Source: Myxococcales bacterium (GTDB lineage Bacteria; Myxococcota_A; UBA9160; SZUA-336). Taken from it: a stretch of DNA of 35,584 nt. Positions 8,859 to 28,892 of this stretch are shown in pieces. A model generated the notes under the pieces. It searched no databases and was not told the DNA's origin. It saw only the letters and a list, made by a program, of their open reading frames with translations. The stretch covers positions 1-35,584 of the forward strand of contig JABSQV010000033.1 in NCBI GenBank assembly GCA_013215565.1, read 5' to 3'. Position numbers and translations under genes: made by a program. Within the stretch, counting starts at the first letter, position 1, and each line of letters opens with the position of its first letter.

Positions 8859-8936
8859 TGGTGACCCCAGCGGGATTCGAACCCGCGTTGCCGGGATGAA
8901 AGCCCGGTGTCCTAGGCCTGGCTAGACGATGGGGTC
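8859..8936 (-). tRNA. tRNA-Glu (anticodon UUC)
   Basis: Read on the minus strand from 8936. The acceptor stem GACCCCA pairs with TGGGGTC, discriminator A and an encoded CCA follow (8861-8859). The D arm starts GTCTAG and ends TAGGAC. The anticodon stem CCGGG/CCCGG encloses the loop CTTTCAT, giving anticodon TTC. The T arm is GCGGG-TTCGAAT-CCCGC. All stems pair fully. The 3' end lies 3 nt from the BCCT stop codon, so the two genes converge almost without a gap. Confidence 0.97.
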
Positions 8937-9028
8937 ACTCGGCAGGGATATAGCCGCATGCCCTGCCGACTGCAACGATCCGCCGGCCCCCGCCCGGGTG
9001 CTAATCTCGTGGGTGAGGAGAGCTTCCG

Positions 9029-9676
9029 ATGCCCAGGATCGACCCGGATCTGCTGCCCGAAGCGGCTTTGCGCCAGATGGGGCTCTCGCGCGAAGAGTTC
9101 CGCGAGATCGCGCGCCGGATGGAAGAACGCGACCGCAAGACCCCGAGCGTGGGCGTCCAGGCGCCGGATTTCGAACTGGCGGCGCTTTCTGCCGCCGGAG
9201 AAACGACGGGCGAGCGCGTGCGGCTCGCCGACCACTTCGAGCGCCCGGTAGCCCTGGTCTTCGGCTCCTACACCTGACCGCCGTTTCGGCTTCAGGCAGG
9301 TCGCCTGAACGAACTCTACCAACGCTACCGGGGCCGGGTGCAATTCTGGTGCGTCTACATCCAGGAGGCCCACCCCGAGGACGGCTGGCGGCTGCGCATG
9401 AACGTCGACGAGGGCATCGTCTTCAAGCAGCCCCGGACCGACGGCGAACGAGCCGAGGTCGCCCGAGCCTGCGTGCTGGGGCTGAAACTAGAGATGCCGA
9501 TGCTGCTCGACGAGATCACGAACTCCGTCGACGAGGCCTACTCGGCACTCCCCGAGCGACTCTTCGTGCTCGAAGCGGGCGGCCGCATCGCCTGGCGTAG
9601 CGAGCAGGGTCCCTGGGGATTCGACGTCGACGCCTTCGAGAAGGCGATTGGCGCGCAGCTCGGCGCGGAGGACTGA
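9029..9676 (+). CDS. Iodothyronine-deiodinase-like selenoprotein (in-frame UGA read as selenocysteine)
   Basis: A 215-aa thioredoxin-fold protein with selenocysteine at residue 83 (TGA 9275-9277). Conceptual translation ending at this TGA gives 82 residues stopping at FGSYT. The same frame continues without another stop to 9676 and reads PPFRLQAGRLNELYQRY, then VYIQEAHPEDGW, then RLFVLEAGGRIAW and GPWGFD. These are the diagnostic blocks of the deiodinase family: FGSCT-U-PPF, YIxEAHxxDGW and GPWxY. A hairpin at 9291-9309 fits a bacterial SECIS. GAGGAG lies 8 nt before the ATG. Animal deiodinases remove iodine from thyroid hormones; bacterial homologs have no proven substrate and may be peroxidase-like redox enzymes. 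It converges on the RHH/zinc-ribbon gene (4 nt gap). Default gene calling would split it in two. Confidence 0.93.
9275..9309 (+). promoter_or_regulatory. UGA codon and candidate bacterial SECIS hairpin of the deiodinase-like gene
   Basis: The UGA (9275-9277) is followed after 13 nt by a perfect 7-bp stem, TTCAGGC (9291-9297) with GCCTGAA (9303-9309), closing a 5-nt loop AGGTC. The loop begins 21 nt after the UGA and has G at its second position. This agrees with the known bacterial SECIS pattern: upper stem, small loop with a G in the first two positions, roughly 16-37 nt from the UGA. It would bind SelB. Confidence 0.85.
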
Positions 9677-10740: not shown

Positions 10741-12444
10741 CTAACTGGCTTCCTCGCCGCTCGGGAGTCGGAGCCGTTCGACCAGCGCCTGCACCGCGGC
10801 TGACGGCGCCGGCGTGAACCTGCTCACGCTGAGCGTCACGGCAAAGTTCACGAGCATGCCGATCGTGCCGATGCCCTCAGGGCTGATCCCGAAGAGCCAG
10901 TCCGCGGATCCCCCGCCCGGCGAGATGAACCTGAAGTAGACGATGTAGCCTGCGGTGAAACCGATACCGGAGAGCATGCCCGCGATCGCACCCTGCTTGG
11001 TGGTCCCGCGATAGAACACGCCAAGCACCAAGACCGGGAAGAAACTCGAGGCTGCGAGCCCGAAGGCGAAGGCGACGACCTGCGCGACGAAGCCCGGCGG
11101 GTAGATGCCGAAGATCCCGGCCACGATCACGGCAAAGGCGGCCGCGATCCGGGCCAGGCGCAGCTCGGTCTCGTCGCTCATGCTCTTCCACAGCATCGAC
11201 TTGAACAGGTCGTGCGAGATCGATGACGAGATCACGAGCAGCAGACCGGCCGCCGTCGAGAGCGCGGCGGCCAGACCGCCCGCCGCGACCAGGGCCACGA
11301 CCCAGGCGGGGAGTTCCGCGATCTCTGGATTGGCGAGCACCATGATGTCTTTATCAACGACCAGCTCGTTCTTCGGGTGATCCTCTCCCAGGTACTGAAT
11401 CCGCCCGTCGCCGTTCCTATCCTTGAAGACGATCAGGCCCGTTGTCTCCCAGTTCTTGAACCACTCTGGAGCGTCGGTGTAGGGCTTGTCGTGCAGCGTC
11501 TCGATCATGTTGACGCGCGCAAAGGCCGCGACCGCTGGGGCCGTGGTGTAGAGCAGCCCGATGAAGACCAGCGCCCACATCGCGCTCCAGCGCGCGGCGC
11601 GCGCGGTGGGCACCGTGTAGAAGCGGATCAGCACGTGGGGCAGCCCGGCCGTGCCCACCATGAGTGCCAGCGTGATCGAAAGCACGTCGATCATGCTCTT
11701 CTTGCCCGGCACCCACGCGCCCGTGTAGTCGGGTAGACCGAGGTCGCGGTGGATCGCATCCAGGGCCTTGAGCAGCGCCATCCCGGCACGTTCTCCCTCG
11801 ATCAGGGTGCCGCCGAGGCCGAGCTGCGGGATTGGATTACCCGTGAGCTTCCACGAGATCGCGGCCGCCGGGACCAGGTAGGCGACGATCAGTACGCAGT
11901 ACTGGGCGACCTGTGTGTAGGTGATCCCGCGCATCCCGCCCATCACCGCGTAGAAGAACACGATCACGACCCCGATCAGCACCCCGACGTTGACGTCGAC
12001 CTCGAGGAAACGCGAGAACACGATGCCGACTCCCCGCATCTGGCCGGCGACGTAGGTGAACGAGATGAAGATCGCGCAGAACACGGCGACCATGCGTGCG
12101 GTCTGGGAGTCGTATCGGTCGCCCACGAACTCGGGTACGGTAAAGCGCCCGAACTTGCGCAGGTAGGGTGCGAGCAGCAGGGCCAGCAGTACGTAGCCGC
12201 CGGTCCAACCCATCAGGTAGATGGCACCCGTGTACCCCATGAACGAGATCAGGCCCGCCATCGAGATGAACGACGCGGCGCTCATCCAGTCGGCGCCCGT
12301 AGCCATGCCATTGGCCAGCGGCGAGATACCGCGCCCGGCAACGTAGAAGCCCGCGGTCGAACCTACCCGGCTCCAGGCCGCGATCCCGATGTAGAGCGCG
12401 AAGGTCAGCGTGACGATCAGGTAGGTCCAGGCCTGGATGCTCAT
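10741..12444 (-). CDS. Sodium/solute symporter, large subunit (SSS family, VC_2705-like)
   Basis: A 567-aa membrane carrier of the SSS family, the type that pairs with a DUF4212 small subunit. It starts MSIQAWTYLIVTLTFALYIG. FYVAGRGISPLANGMATGAD and WMSAASFISMAGLISFMGY form the conserved TM1-TM2 region; GMRGITYTQVAQY and GTAGLPHVLIRFYTV are further signatures. An extracytoplasmic loop has DRNGDGRIQY, an EF-hand-like acidic loop that could bind calcium. STAAGLLLVISSSISHD carries the Na2-site-type serines. The ATG overlaps the small-subunit stop as ATGA, so translation is coupled. Substrate is probably a small carboxylate such as acetate, by family analogy only. Confidence 0.9.
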   Translation of the reverse strand: MSIQAWTYLIVTLTFALYIGIAAWSRVGSTAGFYVAGRGISPLANGMATGADWMSAASFISMAGLISFMGYTGAIYLMGWTGGYVLLALLLAPYLRKFGRFTVPEFVGDRYDSQTARMVAVFCAIFISFTYVAGQMRGVGIVFSRFLEVDVNVGVLIGVVIVFFYAVMGGMRGITYTQVAQYCVLIVAYLVPAAAISWKLTGNPIPQLGLGGTLIEGERAGMALLKALDAIHRDLGLPDYTGAWVPGKKSMIDVLSITLALMVGTAGLPHVLIRFYTVPTARAARWSAMWALVFIGLLYTTAPAVAAFARVNMIETLHDKPYTDAPEWFKNWETTGLIVFKDRNGDGRIQYLGEDHPKNELVVDKDIMVLANPEIAELPAWVVALVAAGGLAAALSTAAGLLLVISSSISHDLFKSMLWKSMSDETELRLARIAAAFAVIVAGIFGIYPPGFVAQVVAFAFGLAASSFFPVLVLGVFYRGTTKQGAIAGMLSGIGFTAGYIVYFRFISPGGGSADWLFGISPEGIGTIGMLVNFAVTLSVSRFTPAPSAAVQALVERLRLPSGEEAS

Positions 12445-12740
12445 GACCGGGTCCCGGAGCCGCGCACTGCGTCGGTGAAACGGCGGTCGACCCGGTCCAT
12501 CCAGACCGCGTAGACCAGGATCAAACCGATGAAGATGTAGATCGAGCCCTGCTGGGCGAACCAGAAGCCGAGCGGAAAGCCTCCGAGCGAGATCGCATTC
12601 AAGGGCTCGACCAGGATGATTCCGAGCACGAACGACGCGACGAACCAAACCGAGAGCAAGAGCGCCATGATCCGCAGGTTCGTTCGCCAGTAGCGCGAGG
12701 GAGACGCCTCGGGAACTCTTCCGCGCTCGTCGTCCGCCAC
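12441..12740 (-). CDS. DUF4212 small subunit of sodium/solute symporter
   Basis: A 99-aa protein with two membrane segments (LRIMALLLSVWFVASFVLG and FWFAQQGSIYIFIGLILVYA) and the signature RYWRTNLRI, then PLGFWFAQQGSI, of the DUF4212 family, which accompanies VC_2705-type SSS carriers. It is too short to stand out from a long spurious frame running through it. The start is GTG 12740, with GGGAGG 8 nt upstream. The last bases overlap the large-subunit ATG. Function is presumed to be assembly or activity of the carrier. Confidence 0.9.
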   Translation of the reverse strand: MADDERGRVPEASPSRYWRTNLRIMALLLSVWFVASFVLGIILVEPLNAISLGGFPLGFWFAQQGSIYIFIGLILVYAVWMDRVDRRFTDAVRGSGTRS

Positions 12741-12781
12741 TGGCGATCCCTCCCCTGCCCGAATCGTGTCCGGCGGCCCGA

Positions 12782-12811
12782 ATTTAACGCTGCGGCAGGG
12801 GCGGGCGTCAA
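12782..12811 (-). promoter_or_regulatory. Sigma-70-type promoter for the DUF4212/symporter operon
   Basis: On the minus strand TTGACG (12811-12806) and TTAAAT (12787-12782) are separated by 18 bp. The -10 lies 41 nt before the GTG start, leaving room for a leader with the observed Shine-Dalgarno. Confidence 0.6.
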
Positions 12812-12829
12812 ATCCGCGCGCCCCAGGGT

Positions 12830-13489
12830 CTAGAAGAGTTGCTGGTGGTACCAGCGCAGCGCGACTGTGACTGCAACCCCGATCGCCAGCGCGATCGGAG
12901 AAAGTTCGCGGAGACCCCTCAGCGTCTCGCGGCCCGTGAACGGGAGGAACGGCGTCTTCGCACAGAACTCGCGGTAGCCGTCGAGGCTGACGCGCTTGCG
13001 CGAATCCTGGTGCCAGGATCCGATCACGGCAAAGATCGGGAATCCTGCGAAGAACGCGACGTCTGCGGCGAAACCGTTGGCAAGCAGATGCAGCAGACCG
13101 AAGAGGCCGAGCCCCATGAAGAGTCCATGCCGCGTGAGCCGGTGGATCCCCCGGATTTCCACCCGCTCGGGCGCCGAGATCGAGGCCGGGCTCGGCCTGA
13201 TCAGCGCCGCGGCCATCAGCACGAACGCGACCGTCATCCCGAGGTAGACCCCCCAGCGGAGCCCTGGGCCCAGCCACGGCGCCCAGAGCAGCGAGCCCGC
13301 ATGCTTGTTCGCGAAGTACACCCAGACCAGCGGCACGAAGGTGGCGAGTGAAACCAGCGAATAGATGCCCAGAAAGCCGCCCGCGCCGAGTGCACGCACC
13401 AGTCCGGGCCGCAGGCGAGAACTCGACAGCAGCATGTGCGTTCCGCCGAACGCGATCCACAGAGTCACGATCCAGGCCGTGGCGTCCAT
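12830..13489 (-). CDS. NnrU family membrane protein
   Basis: A 219-aa polytopic inner-membrane protein of the NnrU family, linked in some bacteria to nitric-oxide metabolism but biochemically undefined. The opening IVTLWIAFGGTHMLLSSSRL and the downstream GFLGIYSLVSLATFVPLVWV are characteristic. IRGIHRLTRHGLFMGLGLFG holds conserved His residues, and GYREFCAKTPFLPF is the C-terminal motif. The frame opens 5 codons earlier, but the ATG at 13489 has GGGGGGAG immediately upstream. It is divergent from the GT-B-like gene and 89 nt from the symporter operon. Confidence 0.82.
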   Translation of the reverse strand: MDATAWIVTLWIAFGGTHMLLSSSRLRPGLVRALGAGGFLGIYSLVSLATFVPLVWVYFANKHAGSLLWAPWLGPGLRWGVYLGMTVAFVLMAAALIRPSPASISAPERVEIRGIHRLTRHGLFMGLGLFGLLHLLANGFAADVAFFAGFPIFAVIGSWHQDSRKRVSLDGYREFCAKTPFLPFTGRETLRGLRELSPIALAIGVAVTVALRWYHQQLF

Positions 13490-13640
13490 GCTCCCCCCCT
13501 TCAATCCGAAGTATACGCAGCATCGGAGGTGGAGTTAGGGACCTTCCGCGGGTTTTCAGAGACCGGGCCCCGGCACTCCCGGGGATCCCGCCCGGCAGCC
13601 TCGCTGTGGTACTACTCCGGCCAATGCGAGCGATGAAGGT

Positions 13641-14792
13641 ATGCCCGCTTCGCTTTTCTTCGGGGCGCCGGCCGCGGCCGTGATCTCGCTGCTCGGGTCG
13701 GACGTGGGGCGCGGACACGCGTTCTACCTCGATGGAGTGGAACGCGAACTCCGGCGGATCGCGCCGCAGCGGGTCTCGGAGCGGGCGAGCGTCTTCGAGA
13801 TCTCGCGAGGCCTCGGGGGGCTGGGTTGGAAGAGCATCCGAGCCGCCTACTACGCGGCAGGACTCGGCAGTCCGGCACCCGCGCTCTACGCCTGGCTGCG
13901 TAGCCGAAGTAACTACGACTCCGATTCTCCGATACTGCGCATCCTGGGGCACCACCTCCGACTCTGGGCGGACGCGTTCGAGATCGTGGTGGTGGACCAT
14001 CCAACGGTCGTCGGCGCGCTGGGAGATCGGGCCGGCGTCTGGTATCTCCACGGCGAGCCGACCGCTCCACCCGAAACCCTGGTCACACGGCCGGCCCGCA
14101 TTCTGGTACCGACTGAGGGCGTGGCGCGCGCGTTCCTGCAGGCAGGCGTCGACTCCGCGCGCGTCTCGGTCACGGGCCTGTGCGTGGACCTCGACCTGCT
14201 TCCGAACAAGCGCGCCCACACCCAACAACGGCGGACGCGGATCGCATCCTACGCACCACTCAGCGTGGCCTTCTTCAGTTCGGGTGCAGAGCCGAGAACC
14301 CACGTCGCGTCGCTGACCGCCGGGGCGGCGGCGCTCGCAAGATCGCGTCACCGCGCGCTGGTGTTCGCGGCCCGGGGCGGACGGCTCGAGCGCGCCGTTC
14401 GGCGACTGCAAGCGCCTTCGCCCGAACTGGTTTCGTACTCCAGCCGGCAGGAACTCGACGCGCTCACGGCCGAGCACTTTCCGAGTCTGGACCTGATCGT
14501 CTCTCCGCCGCATGAACGCACCAGTTGGTCGCTCGCGCTCGGGATCCCGTGCCTGCTCGTGGGCCCCGACATCGGGCCCTTCGCGCCGCGCAACCGCGCG
14601 CTGTTACTCGAGGCCGGCGTCGCGGCCGAACTCGATTCACGGCGGGACGCGCGCGCACTTCCCGAACGCATCGACGAACTGCGCGCGAGCGAAGCCCTGC
14701 TGGAGATGTCGGAACGAGGCAGCGTGACCGAGTTTCGGGGCTTCGAACGGTCGGCCGAACTCCTGATCGAGGAGAGCGACGCCCATCGATGA
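13641..14792 (+). CDS. GT-B-fold glycosyltransferase-like protein
   Basis: A 383-aa protein that looks like a two-domain GT-B transferase of the MurG/MGT kind. The N terminus has AVISLLGSDVGRGHAFYLDG, where a Gly-rich turn plus RGHA resembles the GxGGH acceptor-site loop. The second half has LIVSPPHERTSWSLALGIPC, then GPDIGPFAPRNRALLLEAGV, similar in layout to the nucleotide-sugar binding region (Pro-rich loop, helix, NR/QxxNA segment). No clear Rossmann GxGxxG is present and no family-level match is certain. The ATG at 13641 has only a weak AAGG close by. Function is not assigned. Confidence 0.6.
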   Translation: MPASLFFGAPAAAVISLLGSDVGRGHAFYLDGVERELRRIAPQRVSERASVFEISRGLGGLGWKSIRAAYYAAGLGSPAPALYAWLRSRSNYDSDSPILRILGHHLRLWADAFEIVVVDHPTVVGALGDRAGVWYLHGEPTAPPETLVTRPARILVPTEGVARAFLQAGVDSARVSVTGLCVDLDLLPNKRAHTQQRRTRIASYAPLSVAFFSSGAEPRTHVASLTAGAAALARSRHRALVFAARGGRLERAVRRLQAPSPELVSYSSRQELDALTAEHFPSLDLIVSPPHERTSWSLALGIPCLLVGPDIGPFAPRNRALLLEAGVAAELDSRRDARALPERIDELRASEALLEMSERGSVTEFRGFERSAELLIEESDAHR

Positions 14793-26220: not shown

Positions 26221-26904
26221 ATGAAACCACCGTCCATCCGCGAAACTGGCAGCTCGCTCCAATGGGTGCACCCGCCACGCCAGGAACGCAGCCAACAGAC
26301 GCTCGAGCGGCTGCTGGACGCGGCCGAGGTCCTGCTCGAAGAGAAGGGCTTTGACGAGGTCCCGGTCACCGAGATCGCGCGCCGGGCGGAATCGTCTGTG
26401 GGTGCGCTCTACGCACGCTTCGTTGACAAGGACGCGATCCTCCACGCCCTGCACGAGCGCTTCTGCCGCGAGGCCTGCGCAACCGCCGACGCGGCCCTCG
26501 AACCGGCCCGCTGGGAGGACGCGTCGATCTCGGAGATCGTGTCGGAGTGTGTCGACTTCCTGGTCCGCATCATCCGCGAGCGGGAGGGGCTCTGCCGGAC
26601 CCTCGCGGCTCGGGTCTTCGATCCGCAGATCCGAGAACGCGTCGAGGCCCTGGGCCGCTATGTCGGGCACAAGCTCCAGCAGCTGCTGCTGGTCCGGCGT
26701 GACGCGATCACGCACCCGAATCCCGAGCTCGCCTGCGACTTCGCTTTCCGGCAGGCCTACCTCGTACTCGACCCACTCGTCGCGCGCAGCGGATTCGACC
26801 CCGGCCTGCTGCCGCTCCGCGACAGTGAGATCGCGGTCGAGGTGACTCGTTCCTTCCTCGCGTACCTCGGGGTACACGAGCCGACCGACCGGAGCCAAGC
26901 ATGA
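26221..26904 (+). CDS. TetR/AcrR family regulator (autoregulated)
   Basis: A 227-aa repressor. After about 22 residues, ERSQQTLERLLDAAEVLLEE and GFDEVPVTEIARRAESSVGA, then LYARFVDKDAILHAL, form the DNA-binding domain with its helix-turn-helix. The C-terminal domain has a long helix (SECVDFLVRIIREREGLCRT). The start is fixed by the operator and promoter just upstream. The stop TGA overlaps the ATG of the diiron protein (ATGA), so regulator and enzyme are coupled; the enzyme is presumably repressed along with the regulator. Ligand unknown. Confidence 0.92.
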   Translation: MKPPSIRETGSSLQWVHPPRQERSQQTLERLLDAAEVLLEEKGFDEVPVTEIARRAESSVGALYARFVDKDAILHALHERFCREACATADAALEPARWEDASISEIVSECVDFLVRIIREREGLCRTLAARVFDPQIRERVEALGRYVGHKLQQLLLVRRDAITHPNPELACDFAFRQAYLVLDPLVARSGFDPGLLPLRDSEIAVEVTRSFLAYLGVHEPTDRSQA

Positions 26905-27944
26905 GACTCGAAAAGGTACCCGCCGAACAGCCCGTCGAGACCTTCAGCGTTCCCCAGGACATTTCCTACAACTGGGAATACGAGACCACGCGCAGCCAGT
27001 TGATGCGGCTCTACGAAAACGCCAAGCGCGACCAGTGGAATTCCACCGAGCGTCTCGACTGGTCGATCGACGTCGACCCGGAGTCCCAACTGGTCCCGGA
27101 TCAGAGCCTTGGAATCTGGGGCAGCCCGATGTGGAACAAGCTCACGCCCCGAGAGATCGAGCGACTGCGGAGGGAAGCCATGGCCTGGCAGCTCTCGCAG
27201 TTCCTGCACGGAGAACAGGGTGCGCTGCTGGTGACCGCACAGATCGTCGATTCCGTGCCCTGGTACGAGGCCAAGCAGTACGGGGCGACCCAGGTCATGG
27301 ACGAGGCCCGACACGTCGAGGTGTACCGCACCTACCTGCAGGAAAAACTCCAACACAGTTACCCGGTCAACGACCAGCTCAAGCAGCTTCTCGATACGAT
27401 CCTCACGGACTCGCGCTGGGACATCAAGCTCCTGGGCATGCAGATCCTCGTCGAGGGCCTCGCGCTCGCGGCGTTCGGCGTCATGCGCGATACGGTGACC
27501 TGTCCCTTACTCCGCGAACTGACCACGGGCGTCATGGAAGACGAGTCGCGCCACGTCGCATACGGCGTACTGGCGCTGCGCGAGTACATGCGCAGCCTGC
27601 CCGAGAAGGATCGTCTCGAACGGGAAGAGTTCGTGTACGAAGCCTCCGTGCTGATGCGGGAGCGGATCAAGAATCGCGAAGTCTGGGAAGCGATGGGGAT
27701 GGACGCGGACGCGTGCGTCGAGGCCGCCGACGCCTCGCCCATCTTCCAGGAGTTCAACCGGCGCCTGTTCTCGAAGATCGTGCCCAACATCAAGAGTCTG
27801 GGCCTGCTCTCCGATCGGCAGCGGCGGCGCTTCGAGGAACTCGGCATCCTGGAGTTCGAGCGCGGAAGTACCTCCGACGTCGACCACGCGCTGGACATCG
27901 AGCGGCGCAGAGGCGCGGGGGAACTCGACCTGCTCGAAGCCTGA
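26901..27944 (+). CDS. Ferritin-like diiron carboxylate protein (possible oxygenase)
   Basis: A 347-aa helical protein. Four metal-ligand helices are visible: LHGEQGALLVTAQIVDSV (Glu), QVMDEARHVEVYRTYL (ExxH), QILVEGLALAAFGVM (Glu) and GVMEDESRHVAYGVLALREY (ExxH). This is the R2-like/AurF-like diiron arrangement; E-DEARH-E-DESRH is intact. Such proteins hydroxylate or N-oxygenate small molecules, desaturate lipids, or are simple ferritin relatives. The ATG overlaps the TetR stop. Downstream SDR, DUF1214, sulfotransferase and amidohydrolase genes suggest catabolism or modification of a hydrophobic compound (inference). Confidence 0.85.
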   Translation: MRLEKVPAEQPVETFSVPQDISYNWEYETTRSQLMRLYENAKRDQWNSTERLDWSIDVDPESQLVPDQSLGIWGSPMWNKLTPREIERLRREAMAWQLSQFLHGEQGALLVTAQIVDSVPWYEAKQYGATQVMDEARHVEVYRTYLQEKLQHSYPVNDQLKQLLDTILTDSRWDIKLLGMQILVEGLALAAFGVMRDTVTCPLLRELTTGVMEDESRHVAYGVLALREYMRSLPEKDRLEREEFVYEASVLMRERIKNREVWEAMGMDADACVEAADASPIFQEFNRRLFSKIVPNIKSLGLLSDRQRRRFEELGILEFERGSTSDVDHALDIERRRGAGELDLLEA

Positions 27945-27974
27945 GCCGCCCGCAGGGGCGCCACCGGGCTGGCG

Positions 27975-27980
27975 TATACT
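27975..27980 (+). promoter_or_regulatory. -10-like box TATACT, 9 nt before the SDR ATG
   Basis: TATACT at 27975-27980 is a 5/6 match to the -10 consensus, followed by 9 nt and the ATG at 27990, with no Shine-Dalgarno. The geometry equals that at kdsB and suggests a leaderless or very short leader transcript. Confidence 0.45.
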
Positions 27981-27989
27981 GCCGCGCGC

Positions 27990-28892
27990 ATGGCTTCCGC
28001 ACTGGACCGAGAGCGCGTAGCCCTGGTCACAGGCGCCAGCCGCGGCATCGGCCGCGCGAGCGCGCTGGCTCTGGCGGACGCCGGCTTCGACATCGCGTTC
28101 ACCGCGCGCACTGTCCGCGAGGGCGAGCGCTTCGAACACTCCCCCACCATCCACGCATCCGACACGGCTCCACTTCCGGGCAGCCTCGAGACGACCGCAC
28201 GCGAGATCCGGGAACGGGGACGCCGCGCACTCCCGCTGCGCATGGATCTGCTCGACCGCCCCAGCGTGATCGCGACGGCTGAAAGCGTGCTCGCCGAGTG
28301 GAGCCGGGTCGACGTGCTGGTGAACAACGCCGTCTACACGGGTCCCGGAAATCTCGACCTCTTTCTGGACCTGCCACTGGACGGCGTCGAACGGATTTTC
28401 GCGACCAACGTGCTCTCTCAGGTGTTACTGACGCAGCAGATCCTGCCGCACATGCTCGAACGAGGCTCGGGTGTGATCATCAACCTGGTCTCGGCCGCGG
28501 GGGCGCACGATCCGCCGGCCCCGGCCGATGCGGGCGGATGGGGCTTCGCGTACGGAGCGTCGAAGGCCGCGTTCGAGCGGCTGGCGGGCGTGCTCGAGGT
28601 CGAACTTCGGGGCCGCGGCGTCCGCGTGCACAGTCTCGAACCAGGCTTCGTGATCACCGAAACCATGCAGGCGACCGGTCTGGTCGATCAGCTCGCAGCA
28701 GCGATGGCGCAACTGGACGCCGTCACGCCCGCCGTTCCGGCCGCGGTCGCGGTCTGGCTGGCAACCGCCCCGGAGGCCGCGGAATGGGACGGCAAGACCG
28801 TCTCCGCGCCGTCATTGTGCCGGAAACGACAGCTGCTGCCCCCCGCCGAGATCTCCGCAACCTTTTCGGGCGAGAGCGGTTCCAGCCTCTGA
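27990..28892 (+). CDS. SDR family oxidoreductase
   Basis: A 300-aa short-chain dehydrogenase/reductase. ALVTGASRGIGRASALALAD is the cofactor loop, LVNNAVYTGPG the central strand, NLVSAAG supplies Ser and FAYGASKAAF the catalytic Tyr and Lys (YxxxK intact). VHSLEPGFVITETM is the C-terminal substrate-loop region. An insert near residues 45-60 (RTVREGERFEHSPTIH) is longer than in classical SDRs and places it in the 'extended insert' group common in actinobacteria and myxobacteria. A gap of 45 nt follows the diiron gene. Confidence 0.9.
   Translation: MASALDRERVALVTGASRGIGRASALALADAGFDIAFTARTVREGERFEHSPTIHASDTAPLPGSLETTAREIRERGRRALPLRMDLLDRPSVIATAESVLAEWSRVDVLVNNAVYTGPGNLDLFLDLPLDGVERIFATNVLSQVLLTQQILPHMLERGSGVIINLVSAAGAHDPPAPADAGGWGFAYGASKAAFERLAGVLEVELRGRGVRVHSLEPGFVITETMQATGLVDQLAAAMAQLDAVTPAVPAAVAVWLATAPEAAEWDGKTVSAPSLCRKRQLLPPAEISATFSGESGSSL

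Follow-up and report, generated by a model that had tools for sequence, protein, structure and literature searches.

The frame at positions 9029-9676 of the window (the whole stretch of 35,584 nucleotides analysed here, from a Myxococcales assembly) raises two questions: whether its single internal UGA terminates a broken gene or specifies selenocysteine (Sec) in a bacterial relative of the iodothyronine deiodinases, and what chemistry such a protein would perform. A first-pass annotation, made from the sequence letters, had proposed a deiodinase-like selenoprotein with the UGA at the catalytic position and a SECIS-like hairpin behind it, and had named three findings that would speak against it: a genome lacking the Sec machinery, homologs with neither Sec nor cysteine at the site, or a sequencing error as the origin of the UGA.

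The reading frame and its predicted read-through product

The forward-strand frame is open from 9029 to 9676 apart from one TGA, and its start, internal TGA and end lie exactly where the first-pass annotation had placed them.

9029-9676, + strand: predicted deiodinase-like selenoprotein gene (PF00837), 215 aa with Sec83; closing TGA at 9674-9676
9275-9277, + strand: in-frame TGA, predicted codon of Sec83, at the deiodinase catalytic position
9015-9020, + strand: GAGGAG, Shine-Dalgarno-like, 8 nt 5' of the ATG, read directly from the sequence

If the UGA is taken as a plain stop, the frame from 9029 closes at 9277, which is the starting point of a pseudogene or assembly-error explanation, in which the TGA is a true stop and the product an 82-aa fragment. 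The joined protein contains all three blocks on which the family likeness had been proposed (GSYT-U-PPF, YIQEAHPEDGW and GPWGFD). Hydropathy analysis of the 215-aa protein detected no transmembrane stretch, the 19-residue mean peaking at 1.14 at residue 142.

Family assignment and fold

Searched as a read-through product, the protein matched Pfam T4_deiodinase with an E-value of 1.6e-27 and 96.8 bits (cut-off 27), placing it in PF00837 above the curated threshold, as proposed, and gave a weaker match to the AhpC-TSA profile (33.5 bits, cut-off 26). The NCBIfam model NF038285 (deiodinase family protein) was matched at E 4.9e-56 with 190.6-190.7 bits, under its cut-off of 250, the match spanning only model positions 174-340 of 347, i.e. 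the second half. The top PDB sequence matches were mouse Dio3 (4tr3, E 9.6e-21) and Dio2 (9h48, E 6e-15), and Sec83 aligns with the catalytic residue of both; these alignments, together with the TGA or Cys found at the site in relatives, bear out the placement of the UGA at the catalytic selenocysteine position.

Relatives were compared in an alignment of 69 proteins, comprising 51 Sec forms (window included) and 18 Cys forms, whose source was a set of 70 rows after near-copy removal, two of which were then dropped. The AlphaFold2 model built from this 69-row alignment reached a mean pLDDT of 93.8 and a pTM of 0.90, and Foldseek against the PDB ranked Dio2 and Dio3 as its nearest folds, with ResA-type and DsbE folds directly below and peroxiredoxin folds lower. 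The encoded protein is best explained as a selenoenzyme with a thioredoxin fold, soluble and belonging to the bacterial deiodinase-like family (PF00837).

The same rankings are the source of two rival readings. A ResA-like thiol-disulfide oxidoreductase, acting on protein or small disulfides, is suggested by the ResA and DsbE folds next in rank and by the NCBIfam ResA model, which matched 14 of the 69 members at E 1e-5 or better. A peroxiredoxin-like peroxidase, in which Sec83 would reduce hydroperoxides, Cys148 (discussed below) would resolve it and the deiodinase likeness would reflect ancestry only, draws on the AhpC-TSA score above its cut-off and on the ResA and peroxiredoxin folds listed after Dio2 and Dio3.

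Predicted selenocysteine decoding

The draft genome assembly totals 3.8 Mb over 154 contigs, with a completeness of 91.1%. It encodes SelA (516.8 bits), SelB (284 bits, cut-off 242.25), tRNA-Sec (71.4 bits, cut-off 47, anticodon TCA) and SelD (334.6 bits), so the objection that the machinery might be missing is excluded. The SelD gene (G000:C71:168828-169751, L019) contains one in-frame TGA of its own, and SelD is probably a selenoprotein too.

A scan of the species genomes yielded 55 loci, with TGA at the site in 31, Cys in 21 (two of which, L077 and L078, are generic redoxins only) and no coverage of the site in three. Across the species, relatives and phylum loci pooled, every stop at the Sec position was TGA, never TAA or TAG. 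Once the two redoxins, the rows not reaching the site and duplicates had been dropped, the distinct sequences covering the site numbered 61 with TGA (window included), 21 with Cys and one with TGG, the last being the only one of the 83 with neither Sec nor Cys. A sequencing error is very unlikely as the origin of the UGA, given the many separate genomes that have a TGA at this position.

Amino-acid identity was higher 3' of the TGA than 5' in all four pairs compared (window against L110, L089, L024 and L081), reaching 62% after and 53% before the TGA for L110. Third codon positions diverged most in these four pairs, the gap being narrower before the TGA. A stop followed by untranslated sequence is unlikely, because the part past the TGA is the better conserved one and shows its highest divergence at third positions.

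The pseudogene or sequencing-error explanation can thus point to a frame that ends at 9277 without Sec decoding and to a draft assembly of 154 contigs; it was rejected on the recurrence of the TGA in separate genomes of several phyla, the conservation beyond it and the Sec machinery of the genome, and would now come as a great surprise. In all probability the locus is a genuine gene for a bacterial selenoprotein, and we regard its assignment as a Sec gene of the deiodinase-like family as nearly certain.

The hairpin downstream of the UGA

9291-9309, + strand: SECIS-like hairpin of 7 bp, stem 9291-9297 / 9303-9309, loop AGGUC

The hairpin begins 13 nt past the UGA and has the seven base pairs and the G at loop position 2 that had been described, with a further G at position 3. 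On its own it is marginal: its z-score is -1.32, 18 of 200 shuffles folded equally well or better, and the comparison with synonymous recodings of the same peptide gave p 0.06.

The family was scanned, at the distance typical of bacterial SECIS elements, for hairpins whose stem had 3 or more uninterrupted base pairs and whose loop had G as its first or second base, the limits following the general rules for such elements. Hairpins of -4 kcal/mol or better were found in 47/61 TGA genes and 0/21 Cys genes, many of the genes compared being closely related and hence non-independent. Median best energies were -7.8 kcal/mol for the Sec genes and 0.0 for the Cys genes, whose lowest value was -2.8 kcal/mol, and 28/61 Sec genes but none of the 21 Cys genes outperformed synonymous recoding (p ≤ 0.05). 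The 14 Sec regions that miss -4 kcal/mol comprise 13 with weak hairpins (-2.5 to -3.6) and L095, in which the scan found no qualifying hairpin after the TGA.

Two main stem registers occur among the 61 Sec genes. In register S=42 (28/61) the stem centre lies 21 bases from the first UGA base, and in register S=50 (17/61, window included) 25 bases; among the remaining 16, five score S=36 equal to S=42, ten fall at S=41 or 43 and one at 55. Base changes on both sides of the stem were seen at several pairs in each register: pair 18-32 of S=50 is C-G in 6 genes and G-C in 11, pair 21-29 is variously G-C, A-U, U-G or G-U, and pair 16-26 of S=42 is C-G, G-C, U-A or A-U. Single columns are weak evidence, because Cys genes pair by chance there (between 5 and 15 of the 21 genes, depending on which of the five inner pairs of S=50 is taken); it is the whole stem that makes the difference. 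Across the family the case for a predicted SECIS hairpin is strong, and conviction comes from the comparison of relatives, not from the window alone.

Active-site residues

Twelve positions are invariant in 69/69 aligned proteins, namely G79, Sec/Cys83, Y110, E113, H115, D118, W120, R141, D161, P175, G194 and P195. Among the 51 Sec forms, T82 is present in 50, and both S80, three residues before Sec, and the sequence U-P-P-F are present in all, the latter leaving no UxxC and the former no CxxU. This lack of a CxxU/UxxC pair, with S80 at -3, counts against the ResA-like oxidoreductase, which we consider improbable.

The peroxiredoxin active-site motif is Pxxx(T/S)xxC. By eye, the window protein presents it incompletely: S80 occupies -3, but -7 is not proline, so the serine found in 51/51 Sec forms favours a peroxidase and the absent proline disfavours it. 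The 69/69 invariance of E113, H115, D118 and W120 also weighs against a plain peroxidase, which is not expected to need them.

For Dio2, the available passages of PMC11592359 propose a proton relay of Ser127, Thr129, Tyr157, Glu160, His162 and His182, with Trp167 possibly stacking on His162. In the PDB alignments, this relay and Trp167 correspond to S80, T82, Y110, E113, H115, position 135 and W120, and the sole relay residue missing in the window is the second His (Dio2 His182), replaced by Pro135. Position 135 is His in 18 and Pro in 33 of the 51 Sec forms, and His in 0/18 Cys forms. At the site of Dio3 Arg275 and Dio2 Lys241 the window has Gln193, and Dio1 carries Ala (PMC11592359, same passages). 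P175-E176-R177 equals the Pro213-Glu214-Arg215 set of Dio1, in which, by the same source, the Pro opens the cleft.

The proximal Cys of Dio1 and Dio3, two residues before Sec, is not conserved in the bacterial alignment: the window has Tyr81, and Tyr, Phe or Ile occupies the position in 69/69 proteins. In human DIO1 this residue, Cys124, is described as forming a disulfide with the catalytic residue (excerpt of PMC9141512).

An iodothyronine deiodinase proper, with thyroid hormone of hosts or prey as its substrate, could invoke the Dio1-like Pro-Glu-Arg of residues 175-177 (passages of PMC11592359). It is at odds with the absent second relay His, with the replacement of the clamp Arg/Lys by Gln (though Dio1 itself has Ala there), with the lack of a proximal Cys and a membrane anchor, and with the expected absence of thyroid hormone from such bacteria; we hold it to be highly improbable, and the earlier caution against assuming a thyroid-hormone role stands.

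Cys148 and the proposed mechanism

9470-9472, + strand: codon of Cys148, proposed resolving cysteine; Cys in 46/51 Sec forms, role inferred

At least one Cys beyond the catalytic residue is present in 69/69 aligned proteins. At position 148, within helix 138-152 of the AlphaFold2 model, Cys is found in those 46 Sec forms and in 11/18 Cys forms. The five Sec forms that lack it include L049, whose Cys is shifted by one residue towards the C-terminus, and L068, L098 and L100, where a Cys stands at position 131. Cys148 sits 65 residues after Sec and falls in another alignment column than the distal Cys of Dio3, the distal Cys of the Dio enzymes lying 69-76 residues after Sec. Mutation of the distal Cys of human DIO1 caused no significant change of reduction in a published assay (excerpt of PMC9141512). 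A role of Cys148 in resolving oxidised Sec is put forward tentatively, somewhat below even odds.

In the mechanism proposed here, SelB and tRNA-Sec would decode UGA 9275-9277 as Sec83, whose selenolate would attack an electrophilic small molecule, aided by the conserved relay residues Ser80, Thr82, Tyr110, Glu113 and His115, plus Trp120. Cys148 might then resolve the oxidised Sec as a selenenylsulfide, which a cellular thiol would reduce; as a guess, the chemistry would be a deiodinase-type reductive attack on a non-thyroid substrate. For the account as a whole, i.e. a Sec83 enzyme with relay-aided deiodinase-type attack and resolution by Cys148, we estimate a probability of roughly 0.7 on sequence-derived evidence.

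Chemistry and substrate

Redox chemistry of some kind at Sec83 is highly likely. Deiodinase-type reductive chemistry is favoured because the loop-D residues are retained, and peroxidase chemistry also fits because of the fold and the Sec-plus-Cys layout; a redox role was thought possible for the family by Zhang et al. (2005; PMC1088965, in the part available). Deiodinase-type chemistry is put slightly ahead, just short of an even chance, with thyroid hormone an unlikely substrate, and the peroxidase is a serious possibility to which we would give about one chance in three.

A narrower form of the deiodinase-type reading would make the protein a soluble, stand-alone Sec-dependent reductive dehalogenase of small halogenated aromatics, with Sec recycled via the helix residue Cys148. 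It draws on the retention of most of the deiodinase relay, the Dio1-like Pro-Glu-Arg pocket and the replacement of the proximal Cys by Cys148, and is speculative and rather unlikely; if true, it would represent a B12-free dehalogenation route in uncultured bacteria. In the excerpts seen, literature on bacterial deiodinase selenoproteins and dehalogenation offered nothing beyond the table entry for the family.

Gene neighbourhood

8859-8936, - strand: tRNA-Glu (TTC), just upstream, marking the upstream limit and outside the system

Upstream of the gene lie a BCCT transporter gene and the tRNA-Glu gene, and downstream a frame without Pfam match, followed by an SSF/DUF4212 transporter pair. In this pair (10741-14513, - strand) the SSF transporter frame adjoins a frame ending in DUF4212, perhaps forming a two-part sodium:solute symporter. 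Elsewhere in the window, an AurF-like N-oxygenase frame is followed by a short-chain dehydrogenase frame (26901-28892, + strand).

When 799 ORFs taken from 92 stretches, chosen by length and some of them spurious, were compared all against all, two large clusters emerged, one with 46 loci and one with 35. Both are read as the gene itself (the pieces either side of the TGA) plus overlapping frames; no other cluster occurred in more than 13 loci. A Pfam census covered a near set (ORFs less than 1.8 kb from the gene, 116 scanned from 148 listed, these 148 being the first of at least 110 aa among the 220 remaining of 274 after removal of near-copy loci) and a control set (ORFs beyond 3.5 kb from the gene, 99 scanned from 141 listed). 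Short-chain dehydrogenases (SDR) made up 6/116 near and 2/99 far ORFs, and ring-hydroxylating oxygenase and luciferase-like families 3/116 each in the near set, neither being among the 25 families listed for the control. With counts too few to support a claim, the census showed no convincing excess of any family near the gene over the control. No neighbour gene points to a pathway or substrate.

Distribution and evolution

PF00837 was found in 13/39 genomes of the relatives set and in 51/377 genomes of the phylum set, 48 of them over the cut-off, the genome analysed here being included in both; matches numbered up to three per genome. In two trees the window clusters with L110 (same class) and L089 (same family) with support of 100/96 and 97/91. 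Beside this trio stands an alpha- and gammaproteobacterial Cys clade, at 96/86 in the second tree and unsupported in the first. On supported branches of the first tree, Sec and Cys were exchanged at least three times.

Mouse Dio2 and Dio3 joined the long-branch sequence L103 at 82/82 in the first tree, where the program warned of long branches meeting, and had no resolved bacterial sister in the second, from which L103 and 21 other long or redundant rows were left out and to which two rows were added.

Hydrophobic segments, of any number, precede the Sec domain in 14/66 Sec rows. A paralogous Sec clade of the same class (L105, at 2051-2716 on the - strand, with L092, L093, L112 and L095) has an in-frame N-terminal stretch with one to four of them, for which no Pfam match was found in L112, the member scanned; its members are apparently membrane-bound deiodinase-like selenoproteins. 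L096-L100 and L068, as well as L048, L049 and L057, have a single segment, as in animal deiodinases, and neither tree settles whether any of them is the nearest kin of the animal enzymes.

L105 and L094 each have two deiodinase-like genes tail to tail, both with TGA in L105; one copy in L094, without a recognisable active-site block, is the TGG row and looks decayed. Two Rhodospirillaceae MAGs (L059 and L073) share an identical protein sequence that matches only from residue 89 on, and no active-site block was seen in the three frames before that match. In the planctomycete Cys forms L043, L052 and L060, long N-terminal extensions include stretches that by eye resemble EF-hands, in agreement with an EF-hand fusion reported for the family (PMC9402790, in the part available).

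Twelve viral-contig stretches matched a search pattern, and for none was kinship confirmed; since one of the two patterns requires Cys at the catalytic position, Sec forms were findable by the other only. Among plasmids, one distant match was obtained, annotated as deiodinase-like protein on a Mycolicibacterium plasmid (28.9% identity over 56% of the query).

Comparison with known systems

Sec- and Cys-containing bacterial deiodinase homologs with a bacterial SECIS element were described from the Sargasso Sea (Zhang et al., 2005; PMC1088965, in the part available), and the family is listed in excerpts of later surveys and reviews (PMC2398784, PMC9402790, PMC9312934, PMC13188914). As such proteins have been in print since 2005, the novelty of the gene itself is lowered, and it adds a member to a known family. 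The passages seen of the 2026 review describe the functions of such selenoproteins as largely uncharacterised. A proximal Cys missing throughout, a nearly constant Cys148 and a hairpin in two registers were not met in the available parts of the family literature, though without a search aimed at these traits, and no work on deiodinase-like proteins in Myxococc- bacteria was among the matches listed.

Gene callers that treat every UGA as a stop would split the gene in two and miss the enzyme. Short, without a membrane stretch and confidently modelled, this copy would be a convenient test case for what the bacterial relatives of deiodinases do and how Sec is recycled in them without a proximal Cys.

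The predicted protein belongs to the same fold superfamily as peroxiredoxins and ResA-type thioredoxin-fold proteins but lacks a CxxC-type pair, and those proteins are not known to carry the deiodinase insertion loop. Within the aligned family, 69/69 members match NF038285 at E 1e-5 or better, the window protein falling under the cut-off of that model. With Dio1-3 it has in common the fold, the Sec site and the loop-D residues Tyr/Glu/His/Pro/Asp/Trp, and with Dio1 also Pro-Glu-Arg. It differs from the animal enzymes in having no N-terminal transmembrane anchor and no second relay His (His182 of Dio2), from Dio1 and Dio3 in having no proximal Cys (Dio2 has Ala there), and from Dio3 in the Gln at the Arg275 site. 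The 2022 and 2026 review tables, in the excerpts available, give UxxC for the family and the 2008 table gives no such motif, whereas U-P-P-F was found here in 51/51 Sec forms. The closest likeness is to the published bacterial deiodinase-like selenoproteins, which, as far as the accessible text goes, resemble the window protein in PF00837 membership, in the occurrence of Sec and Cys forms, in a bacterial SECIS element and in having no expected thyroid role.
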